A stretch of DNA of 43,853 bases from Clostridiales bacterium (GTDB lineage Bacteria; Bacillota; Clostridia; Oscillospirales; Oscillospiraceae): positions 1 to 43,853 of the forward strand of contig JAJQCJ010000030.1 in the NCBI GenBank assembly GCA_021202775.1, given 5' to 3'. Under the pieces are notes generated by a model that made no database searches, was not told where the DNA came from, and saw nothing but the letters and a program-made list of their open reading frames with translations. The position numbers and the translations under genes are program-made. Positions 37,557 to 41,390 of the stretch are shown piece after piece; within the stretch, counting starts at the first letter, position 1, and each line of letters starts with the position of its first letter.

Positions 37557-37728
37557 ACTGCTCCATTATTCATGATATTCAGTTCATTGTAGCATTTTCC
37601 CTTTTCTGCGTCAATGATGAGTTCGTGAAAGTTTTTGAAACGCTGTCGCAGACAGAGGAGGGCAGGAAACAGGCAGCGGCGCCACCGTATTCGGGTTAAG
37701 GGGCCGCTTTTGCCTGATGTAAAATTGT

Positions 37729-37757
37729 GTCCGCTCCGATGGGGCGGACATTTTTTC
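37729..37757 (+). terminator. Intrinsic-type hairpin before the STAND gene
   Basis: GTCCGC (37729-37734) pairs with GCGGAC (37744-37749), followed by ATTTTTT. No annotated gene ends just upstream on this strand, so it may block read-through or mark an undetected short transcript. Confidence 0.65.
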
Positions 37758-37776
37758 GCGTCTTTTGCTTTTTTCC

Positions 37777-37804
37777 TTGCGCAAGGAGGAAAATATGATA
37801 TACT
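37777..37804 (+). promoter_or_regulatory. Promoter of the STAND NTPase gene
   Basis: TTGCGC (37777-37782) and TATACT (37799-37804) are 16 bp apart. The -35 lies in the perfect palindrome CCTTGCGCAAGG (37775-37786), a possible repressor site. The start codon follows 43 bp later. Confidence 0.55.
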
Positions 37805-37847: not shown

Positions 37848-40376
37848 ATGGTTGACTTTTTAAACTGGGTCAAGGAAAATGTACCAGGGCCGTTTATGTG
37901 GGTTTTCATAGTAGTGATTATCCTTGGCGCTCTGTTGGTCTGGTTCCTCACAAATGGGGAGAAAGCCGCGTCTACTTACAACAAAATCAAGGCATGGAAA
38001 ACCCGCAAAGCAAAACCGCTGACCAAAGGCCCGGCCAGAGTCAGAGGAAAGCTCCAGTTTCGGGACGAGCTGGTGAAGGAAACCAGCAAGCAAATCAAAA
38101 AGGCCAAAAAGACGAAACAAAACAAATTTCTCCTTCACGGCTTCGGTGGGGTTGGGAAAACCGCTGTAGCTACGGCGCTTTATGACGCGCTGGAACCCAG
38201 CTGCCAGCAAATCGGCTGGGTGGAGTGCCGGGAGAGCAGCTCCCTGCGGGACAGTCTGCTGGCAGCCATCGACACAGGCAGCGGGAACAAAACCGCCGAG
38301 GAACGCTTTGCGGAGATTGAGCGCCTGCTGCTGGATGCCACGGGGGAAACCATCCTGTTTCTGGACAACGTGGACCGGTACGACCCGTTGCTGAGAGATC
38401 TGACACGCTATAATGTGACCCTGGTTGTAACCTCCCGGATGGAGCAGGTGGATGGCTACATCCCCATTCTTATCCCCCAGCTGGCAGAGGACAAGTGTGT
38501 GGAGCTGTTCCGCGCCTATTGCGCCCAAACCCTTACAGAGCAGGACGAGCCTGCGACGCGGGAACTGGTACGGCTGGTCAGTTGCCACACTCTGTCGGTG
38601 GAGCTGCTGGCCAAGGGCCTTCCCGCAGGAATGAACCTGCCGGAGTACCTGGAGCGGCTGAAAGCGGAGGGCTTCGGCTTCCCCGGCCTGAAATTCCGCA
38701 CTGGCCACGATGAGGAAATAGGCACCATAACAGACCATCTGAAAAAGCTCTTTGACATGGCCAGGCTGGGCGGGGAGCAGACCCGCGTCATGCAGAACCT
38801 GGCGCTGATGGCAGACAACCGTACGCTGCCCTTTGAAGTGCGGGATTGGATCGGCTGCGAGGAAAACACCCTGAATGAACTGGCCAATACCGGCTGGCTG
38901 ACCCAGACAGAGGATGGGTACGAGGTACACCCCATTGTCCGGAAGGTCGTTCTGTTAGGTGGGGTTCCGCTGTCGGCAGTGGAGCACTATCTTAATTTTG
39001 TCGCTTACAAGCCATACTTCCAGGACGGCGAGGACTACCGTGCAGTACAGTTCAAGCTGGGAATCGTAGAATCAGGGCTGGCGCGAGTAGAGGACAGGAT
39101 GGAGAAAGGCGCAGATACCGCCGCGCTGTACAATAAACTGGGCGTTGTCTACATCGACCAGGGACAGTACGTTCAGGCAGAGATGTGCTGCCAGAAGGCG
39201 CTGAACATCTACCACAAGATGCCCGGGGAGAACCACCCGGGCATGGCCGACAGTTACAGCAATCTGGGCGTTGTCTACAGCAGACAAGCAAAATATACTG
39301 AAGCGGAGAGGTGCTTTCTGAAGGAACTGAAAATCCGCCGCAAGGTGCCAGAGGAGCGCGATATGTTGGAGGATGAAGCCCCAGATACGGTTGGCAGCTA
39401 CAATAATCTGGGCAATGCCTACAGAAGGCAAGGGGAGTATGTTCAAGCGGAAAAGTGTTACCGGGAGGCACTGCGCATCCGTCGTAATGCGCTGGCAGCA
39501 CGCAATATGCTGGAGGAGAAAGACCCGGATACGGCCATCATCTACAGCAATTTGGGTAATGTCTACAGAAACCAGGGGAAGGATACCCAGGCGAAGAAGT
39601 GTTACCAGAATGCGCTGGACATCCGTCTTAAGGTGCTGGGGGAGGAACACCCGGACACGGCCAACAGCTACAATAACTTGGGCAATGTCTACAGACGTCA
39701 AGGATGGTATGCCCAGGCAGAGGAGTACCACCGGACGGCACTGAACATCCGTCTTAAGGTGTTGGGGGAGGAACACCCGGACACGGCCAACAGCTACAAT
39801 AACTTGGGCGTTGCCTGTGAAGACCAGAATAGGTATGATGAGGCAGTGGAACAGTACCTGCACGCCTGGAGGATTTGGCAGAAGACGCTCGGCCCAGAGC
39901 ACCCATCTACCAAATTGGCTGAGAGCAACCTGCGCAGCGTATTCCCCCACACCGACCACGGCGATGAGGACTTCGATACCTGGCTCAGCCGCCAATGGAG
40001 GGCACTGGGGGAGGAACACTCGGACACGGCCAACAGCTACAATAACCCAGGCGTTGTCTACGATGACCAGGGGCAGTATGACCAAGTGGAGGCATGCCAC
40101 CAGAAGGCGCTAGAAATCCGCCTTAAGGTGCTAGGAGAAAACCATCCAGACACGGCTATGAGCTATAATAACTTGGGAGTTGTCTATGAAAACCAGAAAC
40201 GGTTTGATGAGGCAATGGAACAGTGCCTGCACGCCTGGAGGATTTTGGAAAGGGTACTCGGCCCGGAACATCCGCGTACCGAAACGGTAAAAAACAACCT
40301 CCGTAGAGTATTCCCCCACATCGCCCACGGAGACGAGGACTTCGAGACCTGGCTCAGCCGCCAGCAGAAGGCCTGA
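37848..40376 (+). CDS. STAND NTPase: transmembrane segment, NB-ARC and tetratricopeptide repeats
   Basis: This 842-residue protein has one membrane helix at about 14-36 (PFMWVFIVVIILGALLVWFL) and a Lys-rich linker. The NB-ARC-type NTPase follows at about 70-395: Walker A GFGGVGKT at 98-105, Walker B ETILFLDNVD near 168, TLVVTSR near 191, and a winged-helix end with YEVHPIVRKV. From about 420 on there are eight kinesin-light-chain-like TPRs (SYNNLGNVYRRQGWYAQAEE type). STAND proteins of this plan switch on when the repeats bind a trigger; some bacterial ones give phage defence. The ATG at 37848 has GGGGGTG upstream; the 71-codon extension contains the promoter. Surrounding genes are housekeeping and unrelated. 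Confidence 0.88.
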   Translation: MVDFLNWVKENVPGPFMWVFIVVIILGALLVWFLTNGEKAASTYNKIKAWKTRKAKPLTKGPARVRGKLQFRDELVKETSKQIKKAKKTKQNKFLLHGFGGVGKTAVATALYDALEPSCQQIGWVECRESSSLRDSLLAAIDTGSGNKTAEERFAEIERLLLDATGETILFLDNVDRYDPLLRDLTRYNVTLVVTSRMEQVDGYIPILIPQLAEDKCVELFRAYCAQTLTEQDEPATRELVRLVSCHTLSVELLAKGLPAGMNLPEYLERLKAEGFGFPGLKFRTGHDEEIGTITDHLKKLFDMARLGGEQTRVMQNLALMADNRTLPFEVRDWIGCEENTLNELANTGWLTQTEDGYEVHPIVRKVVLLGGVPLSAVEHYLNFVAYKPYFQDGEDYRAVQFKLGIVESGLARVEDRMEKGADTAALYNKLGVVYIDQGQYVQAEMCCQKALNIYHKMPGENHPGMADSYSNLGVVYSRQAKYTEAERCFLKELKIRRKVPEERDMLEDEAPDTVGSYNNLGNAYRRQGEYVQAEKCYREALRIRRNALAARNMLEEKDPDTAIIYSNLGNVYRNQGKDTQAKKCYQNALDIRLKVLGEEHPDTANSYNNLGNVYRRQGWYAQAEEYHRTALNIRLKVLGEEHPDTANSYNNLGVACEDQNRYDEAVEQYLHAWRIWQKTLGPEHPSTKLAESNLRSVFPHTDHGDEDFDTWLSRQWRALGEEHSDTANSYNNPGVVYDDQGQYDQVEACHQKALEIRLKVLGENHPDTAMSYNNLGVVYENQKRFDEAMEQCLHAWRILERVLGPEHPRTETVKNNLRRVFPHIAHGDEDFETWLSRQQKA
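39657..40376 (+). repeat. Tandem 369-bp in-frame duplication in the TPR region
   Basis: A unit of 123 codons made of two TPRs plus the tail VFPH-x-x-HGDEDF-x-TWLSRQ occurs twice, at about 39657-40025 and 40026-40376. An older 126-bp step is also seen: 39621-39683 and 39747-39809 match at 62 of 63 bases. Confidence 0.88.
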
Positions 40377-40484: not shown

Positions 40485-41390
40485 TTAGAACAGCCTCTCA
40501 GGGTACACACCCTGGTCGATCAGCGCCCGGATGCTGTCCACGACGCCCTGCTTGTCCTCCCGATAGGTGACGCCGAACCATTTGCCGCCGGTGGGCAGCA
40601 CCGTCACCCTGGCGGTGTCGGCAGCCACCATGCCGCCGATGATGGTGGGCAGCAGATATTCCTCCGTGCTGCCCTCCTGCTGCCCCTGGAGGAAGGTCAG
40701 GAAGCCGTCCTCCAGCACATCCAGGAACTCCAGGTCAAGGCCCCACATGTTCATAGGCACCAGCGTATCCCCCGGCACCAGGACGCCGCTGACCATGGCG
40801 TCCACGCCGTTGGGGGCCTTTTCGATGTACTTTGTCTCGACGACCTCCATCAGCCGGCCGGTATCGTCCGTTTTGCAGATGCCTCTGGTGACGCTGCCGT
40901 GGTCGGACAGGGTGTTTTTCAGCCGGAAGCCCGCCATGCAGTAGGTGCGCCGGGCGATGCCGTCCTGCAAAAACTGATGCATCCGGCGGAAGGCCTCCTT
41001 GCCGTAGTAGTCATCCGCGTTGATGACCGCAAAGGGGCAGTCCAGAATTCCTTTACAGGAGAGGACGGCCTGACCCGTCCCCCAGGGCTTTGTCCGACCG
41101 GTCAGCAGCCGGGCGGCATCCACCCCGGCGGGCAGATCGGTCAGCTCCTGATAAGCGTACCGAACAGGGACGCCGGCGCTGACCAGCCGCTGCCCCACGG
41201 CGGCGTGGAAGGCTTCTTCAATGTCCCGGCGGATGATAAAGATGACCTCGTCAAAACCCGCCTCCAGCGCATCGTAAACGGAATAGTCCGTAATAATTTC
41301 ACCGTTGGGGCCAACGCTCTCCAACTGCTTAATGCCGCCCTTGAAGCGGCTGCCCATGCCCGCCGCCATAATGACCAATGCTGTCTTCAT
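40485..41390 (-). CDS. Sugar-phosphate nucleotidyltransferase family protein
   Basis: This 301-residue protein fits the GT-A-fold NTP transferase family. It begins LVIMAAGMGSRFKGGIKQLE, the nucleotide-binding loop with the Arg and Lys of the GxGxRxxxxxxK pattern, and later has FAVINADDYYGKEAF, the metal-binding Asp pair. Such enzymes make NDP-sugars or CDP-choline-like donors for surface polymers; the sugar is unknown. The ATG at 41390 was chosen because the next frame upstream has no clear ribosome site and lies over the promoter. It is divergent from fbp. Confidence 0.85.
   Translation of the reverse strand: MKTALVIMAAGMGSRFKGGIKQLESVGPNGEIITDYSVYDALEAGFDEVIFIIRRDIEEAFHAAVGQRLVSAGVPVRYAYQELTDLPAGVDAARLLTGRTKPWGTGQAVLSCKGILDCPFAVINADDYYGKEAFRRMHQFLQDGIARRTYCMAGFRLKNTLSDHGSVTRGICKTDDTGRLMEVVETKYIEKAPNGVDAMVSGVLVPGDTLVPMNMWGLDLEFLDVLEDGFLTFLQGQQEGSTEEYLLPTIIGGMVAADTARVTVLPTGGKWFGVTYREDKQGVVDSIRALIDQGVYPERLF

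Follow-up and report, generated by a model that had tools for sequence, protein, structure and literature searches.

Plant CC-NLRs such as NRC1 and NRC2, and also Apaf-1, are built around an NB-ARC fold and carry LRR or WD40 repeats; the CC-NLRs begin with a coiled-coil bundle. According to an excerpt of PMC6944444, the 29 N-terminal residues of plant NRC4 are enough for cell death. In TPR-STAND proteins of the PH0952/MalT type an NTPase core precedes a TPR sensor, and a closed ADP form opens on a trigger to give a multimer (PMC6468293, available in part). Avs (AVAST) proteins combine a STAND core, a repeat sensor and an N-terminal module; Avs5 is found at membrane sites, and its protection requires an N-terminal hydrophobic localisation segment (PMC12931631, available in part). 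Two further groups bear on this work, namely the TPR protein of the FxSxx-COOH system (NF040586) and the TIR-NB-ARC-TPR proteins of the same order.

Here we describe a gene in a window of 43,853 nucleotides (the whole stretch of DNA analysed) from a Clostridiales bacterium of commensal type. Its 842-residue product is a STAND/NB-ARC NTPase, NLR-like in layout. The protein shares the NB-ARC fold with plant CC-NLRs and Apaf-1, but it has TPRs where these have LRR or WD40 repeats, and the coiled-coil bundle of the CC-NLRs is replaced by a fixed membrane helix. Unlike proteins of the PH0952/MalT type, it has an N-terminal membrane helix and is without a DNA-binding output. The Avs likeness extends to the layout, whereas the scores are low (13.1 bits for the PADLOC model of Avs4; 15.5 bits against a cut-off of 1500 for the NCBIfam model) and no enzymatic effector was found. 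NF040586 matched with 194.7 bits, under its cut-off of 300, and the best stretch lies within the TPRs. Eight TIR proteins of the order have a related NB-ARC/WHD core and TPRs; in these a TIR domain replaces the short N-terminal module, and an alignment of two of them (L036, L037) gave 22% identity in the core.

Anatomy of the gene and its protein

The features of the gene are collected in Table 1. The preliminary description, which was made from the letters of the window, had listed one helix, the P-loop and Walker B motifs, eight TPRs, 842 residues and an own promoter, and had assigned the protein to the STAND class; alignment and fold model agree with this. The lysine and three glycines of the P-loop are invariant in 13 of 13 aligned rows, and the histidine and proline of the winged-helix VHP occur in at least 90% of the same 13 rows. 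The VHP presumably corresponds in position to the MHD motif of NLRs.

Table 1. Features of the gene and its upstream region, in window coordinates.
Feature	Position	Strand	Basis or remark
Terminator-like hairpin upstream of the gene	37727..37751	+	sequence
Promoter TTGCGC, 16-nt spacer, TATACT, preceded by TG (extended -10)	37777..37804	+	sequence
Whole gene, 842-aa NB-ARC/TPR STAND protein	37848..40376	+	ORF and structure model
Variable N-terminal module, residues 1-52	37848..38003	+	unlike among copies at the same locus
Membrane helix, residues 16-34	37893..37949	+	hydrophobicity and structure model
P-loop GFGGVGKT, residues 98-105	38139..38162	+	alignment
Walker B region ETILFLDNVD, residues 167-176	38346..38375	+	alignment
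Winged-helix VHP, residues 360-362	38925..38933	+	alignment
TPR array, eight units, residues 422-804	39111..40259	+	domain search, repeat pattern, structure model
369-bp tandem duplication (TPR and C-tail), first copy	39636..40004	+	
369-bp tandem duplication, second copy	40005..40373	+	
Conserved C-terminal tail, FPHxxHGDxDFxxWLxxQ type	40293..40373	+	

The structure model had a pLDDT of 82.5. The first match in a Foldseek search against the PDB was the TPR-STAND protein PH0952 (6mfv; E 1.1e-13), with 13% identity, TM values of 0.39/0.47 and an rmsd of 13.7 A across the whole chain; further matches were the NB-ARC of NRC1 and NRC2 and Apaf-1. The NB-ARC assignment is thus borne out by the fold, although the Pfam NB-ARC score of 23.0 bits lies 0.5 under the cut-off. 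NACHT, the NTPase type of the bNACHT antiphage proteins, was absent among the best 25 of 32 families listed for the protein, and no DNA-binding or enzymatic domain appeared there. Nor does the structure model leave a segment for a DNA-binding domain. The short membrane module is the sole, putative, candidate for an output within the protein. Three basic residues lie in the 15 positions following the membrane helix and one precedes it, so that the NTPase side is predicted to be cytoplasmic by the positive-inside rule.

The two copies of the tandem duplication are 75% identical over the 300 nt compared. The number of TPR units recognised by pattern was eight in the window, five in G016 and six each in G001 and G027; these counts cover the four full-length copies free of N runs, with two out-of-register matches in G001 dropped. 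Assembly gaps (N runs) in L027, L030 and L031 fall within TPR arrays, where nearly identical repeats would make such gaps likely. The third-position GC of the gene is 0.69, against 0.83-0.90 in four neighbours in the window.

Copies in the genus and presence at three loci

We searched 32 genomes of the genus, the window's own (G000) included, and found the core in ten at E<=0.001. In seven of these ten, again counting the own genome, the core is nearly complete and at least 65% identical. A single copy is found in the own genome, and second copies in G001, G014 and G027 bring the total to ten. In the wider family, the core profile found 18 of 300 genomes at E<=1e-12. Two of the second copies, G001b and G014b (L034:7634-9028 and L035:6451-7719), combine a membrane helix, a winged helix and TPRs without an NTPase, and each stands in a genome that also has a full copy; G027b is without residues ~213-284. 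The TGnTATACT element is conserved in all ten copies, as is the upstream TTGCG. The C-terminal tail was found in eight of the ten, and the two remaining frames close behind a stretch of N.

This close family is spread over three chromosomal loci, each of which is variable. The assemblies are drafts, and at every empty site counted the two flanks share a contig. Locus 1 lies beside ORF 40488-41390 and is readable in the seven genomes in which that ORF is at least 85% identical; the gene is present in G000, G016 and G029 and absent from G002, G028, G017 and G020. The distance between the methyltransferase and the ORF is 215-216 bp in G002 and G028. Where G016 has 2.37 kb, G017 has ~50 bp, and the flanking sequence of these two genomes is 97% identical on one side and 91% on the other; the empty site of G020 resembles that of G017. 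At locus 2 the two flanking proteins reach at least 95% in seven genomes, and four of them have the gene (G019, G001, G014, G027; absent from G031, G022 and G026). Locus 3 holds copies in G001, G014 and G027, the latter two with only one flank on the same contig; G031 was left outside this tally because its flanks lie on different contigs. At locus 3 the sequence of G022 matches as far as 38 bp short of the start; 133 bp of different sequence follow, and the match then resumes with the final 19 bp of the gene, so that the site is probably a deletion scar. The gene is dispensable and variably present among relatives.

The upstream neighbour at locus 1 differs between two groups of genomes, and the window keeps a remnant of the gene end and terminator of the other group's upstream neighbour. 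This remnant indicates that the gene probably adjoined ORF 40488-41390 before the rearrangement, and its absence from locus 1 is probably loss. The breakpoint lies at window positions 37640-37760, where the methyltransferase side is joined to the remnant. In G016 and G029, the two relatives in which gene X precedes the gene described here, gene X is followed by a hairpin like the one upstream of the gene in the window; the latter is, by comparison, a vestige of gene X.

As had been noted at the outset, the neighbours of the gene in the window are housekeeping genes. No defence-island, phage or mobile-element association was found for the gene, and the viral, phage and plasmid collections contained no close copy. 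A mobile defence cassette is ruled out because the copies track their locus, with losses. The partner-gene survey took ORFs of at least 90 aa; at all three loci the flanking genes that were searched occur also in genomes without the gene, so that the earlier term single-gene fits.

Rates of change and tree

For the pairs G016/G029, G000/G016 and G000/G029, dN was 0.18, 0.167 and 0.196 in the NB-ARC core against 0.033, 0.085 and 0.080 in ORF 40488-41390, and dS was 0.394, 0.517 and 0.652 against 0.215, 0.483 and 0.562. The dN of the core is 2 to 5.5 times that of the ORF; that of the methyltransferase was 0.011-0.047, and at the protein level the core changes faster than both flanking genes. 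A clear excess of silent change in the core was seen for G016/G029 only. With dN/dS of 0.30-0.46 the core is under purifying selection. Presence at the site in every relative and slow evolution, which the preliminary description had named as arguments against a defence role, were therefore not what we observed.

A tree of seven cores and an outgroup separated locus 1 from locus 2 in 100% of 200 bootstrap trees; the same branch had a support of 71/100 and no branch was starred.

N-terminal modules and mosaic copies

While promoter, TPRs and tail are common to the copies, the N-terminal modules are unlike among copies at one locus. They measure 25-95 residues in the copies with an NTPase and ~65 in G001b, and were grouped by eye into five types. 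Type I (window, G027b) has ENVPG and then a membrane helix; type II (G016, G001) has KDxWDI, a membrane helix and a linker; type III (G029, G027, G014) has KDIxDIGKD and no membrane helix; type IV (G019) is short and proline-rich; type V is that of G001b and G014b. Both type II and type III are represented at locus 1 and again at locus 2. A hydrophobic helix is present in six of the ten modules (19-residue mean 2.49-3.37), and the other four copies are without a membrane helix. Six of the ten have a helical moment of 0.51-0.66 over an 18-residue stretch from residue 2-4, values taken without a shuffled control; the window's own module is weakly amphipathic (0.29). A membrane or amphipathic helix at the N-terminal place suggests action on the membrane.

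Between G016 and G029 a 3.9-kb match at 95% stops about nine codons into the gene, and from there to the core only matches of 8-9 nt, a chance size, are found. At locus 2 the match between G001 and G027 stops 41 bp before the start, with one 18-nt match inside the modules. Within core columns 1-70, G029 resembles G027 and G014 of locus 2 (76-81% identity) more than G016 and G000, with which it shares locus 1 (52-63%); beyond about column 210 it is closer to the latter pair (77-79%) than to the former (53-58%). A second mosaic inside the core involves G014 and G019. These identity patterns suggest exchange between loci. Two modules were searched in the 32 genomes and found on no other protein beyond weak matches, a search of low power in which the module of G027b reached only E 0.0027.

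Proposed function and alternatives

A further 23 more distant ORFs with the core were found, and ten of these were scanned, eight of them chosen for a TIR-like look. TIR_2 stood at the N-terminal place in all eight picks (eight of the 23); of the other two, L032 has an N-terminal region without a Pfam match and L145 no N-terminal domain. TIR domains in some relatives, empty sites at loci that are otherwise occupied, modules that differ and rapid change of the protein together favour conflict over housekeeping signalling, and a conflict role is likely. The defence role first put forward for the protein is thus favoured in part, namely by the modules and the TIR relatives; against it stand the housekeeping neighbours and the PADLOC search, which returned a generic TPR model besides Avs4 and no other phage-defence match. 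As a sensor for bacterial self-defence the protein is a good, though unproven, candidate.

The reading that we put forward, and hold at about even strength, is that of a stand-alone membrane-anchored NLR-like conflict receptor, directed most likely against phage or other invaders, whose N-terminal helices disturb the membrane. In the resting state the NB-ARC would bind ADP in a closed form restrained by the TPR arm, and the N-terminal helix would tether the protein to the inner membrane face. Binding of a trigger by the TPRs would open the NB-ARC, ATP-bound subunits would form a ring, and the ring would gather the helices in the membrane, where the disturbance would stop or kill the cell. The ADP/ATP switch and nucleotide-driven oligomerisation are predicted from the fold family; trigger binding by the TPRs and membrane disturbance as the output are likewise inferred.

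Rather less probable, in our view, is a conflict receptor in which the helix serves purely as an anchor and a second protein, drawn to the NB-ARC ring, delivers the output. Modules with and without a membrane helix occupy the same locus in different species, and the localisation segment of Avs5 suggests that the window's helix may be a locating device. However, the flanking genes searched occur also where the gene is absent, and the module search, for what its power allows, placed the two modules on no other protein beyond weak matches.

A signalling regulator in the manner of MalT, AfsR or PH0952, which would sense a metabolite or peptide and act on physiology and not on invaders, is improbable. 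The best Foldseek match is a MalT homologue (PMC6468293, available in part), and a single gene with its own promoter and under purifying selection would suit a regulator. Repeated absence and differing N-terminal modules would be unusual for one, and the output domain is missing from both the best 25 of 32 families and the model cited above. The AfsR model gave 53.6 of 1430 bits with the match within the TPRs, and the structure model has no place for the domain by which MalT/SARP/LuxR-type STAND regulators bind DNA. Kin or mobile-element discrimination, with TPRs that read variable self or plasmid proteins as in fungal NB-ARC/TPR incompatibility genes, is very doubtful: mosaic copies and repeat turnover between species would fit, and fungal PLP-1 has NB-ARC and TPRs (PMC12881547, available in part), but bacteria are not known to undergo cell fusion of the fungal kind.

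The membrane-disturbing conflict receptor can be extended, tentatively and with a good deal of speculation, to a genus-specific family whose executioner would be no more than a helix that can be exchanged. Recombination would swap modules of ~25-95 residues, membrane-spanning or purely amphipathic, at fixed loci before a shared NB-ARC/TPR switch; the NTPase-less sisters G001b and G014b would be decoys or brakes, and the whole would parallel, in bacteria, the helix of the plant resistosome. In the literature searched we found no precedent for differing minimal non-enzymatic modules at fixed loci together with NTPase-less sister genes. Should the short helix be the executioner, nature would have supplied, in these copies, a series of minimal effectors mounted on a common switch, with which one could test directly whether bacteria too evolved the membrane action of an N-terminal helix that plant receptors show. 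The case also illustrates how a defence-type gene amid housekeeping genes can be recognised by structure and locus comparison and not by island context.

Other N-termini were seen among the distant relatives. In L145:6546-8324 a short asparagine/glycine-rich N-terminus, possibly a self-assembly motif, is followed by NB-ARC and TPRs. In L146:6279-9761 and L152:2281-4065 an N-terminus that looks kinase-like by eye stands ahead of a related NTPase core. Two other genera of the family have neighbouring pairs of TIR-NB-ARC-TPR genes (L142:6300-11116 and L143:5488-12140).
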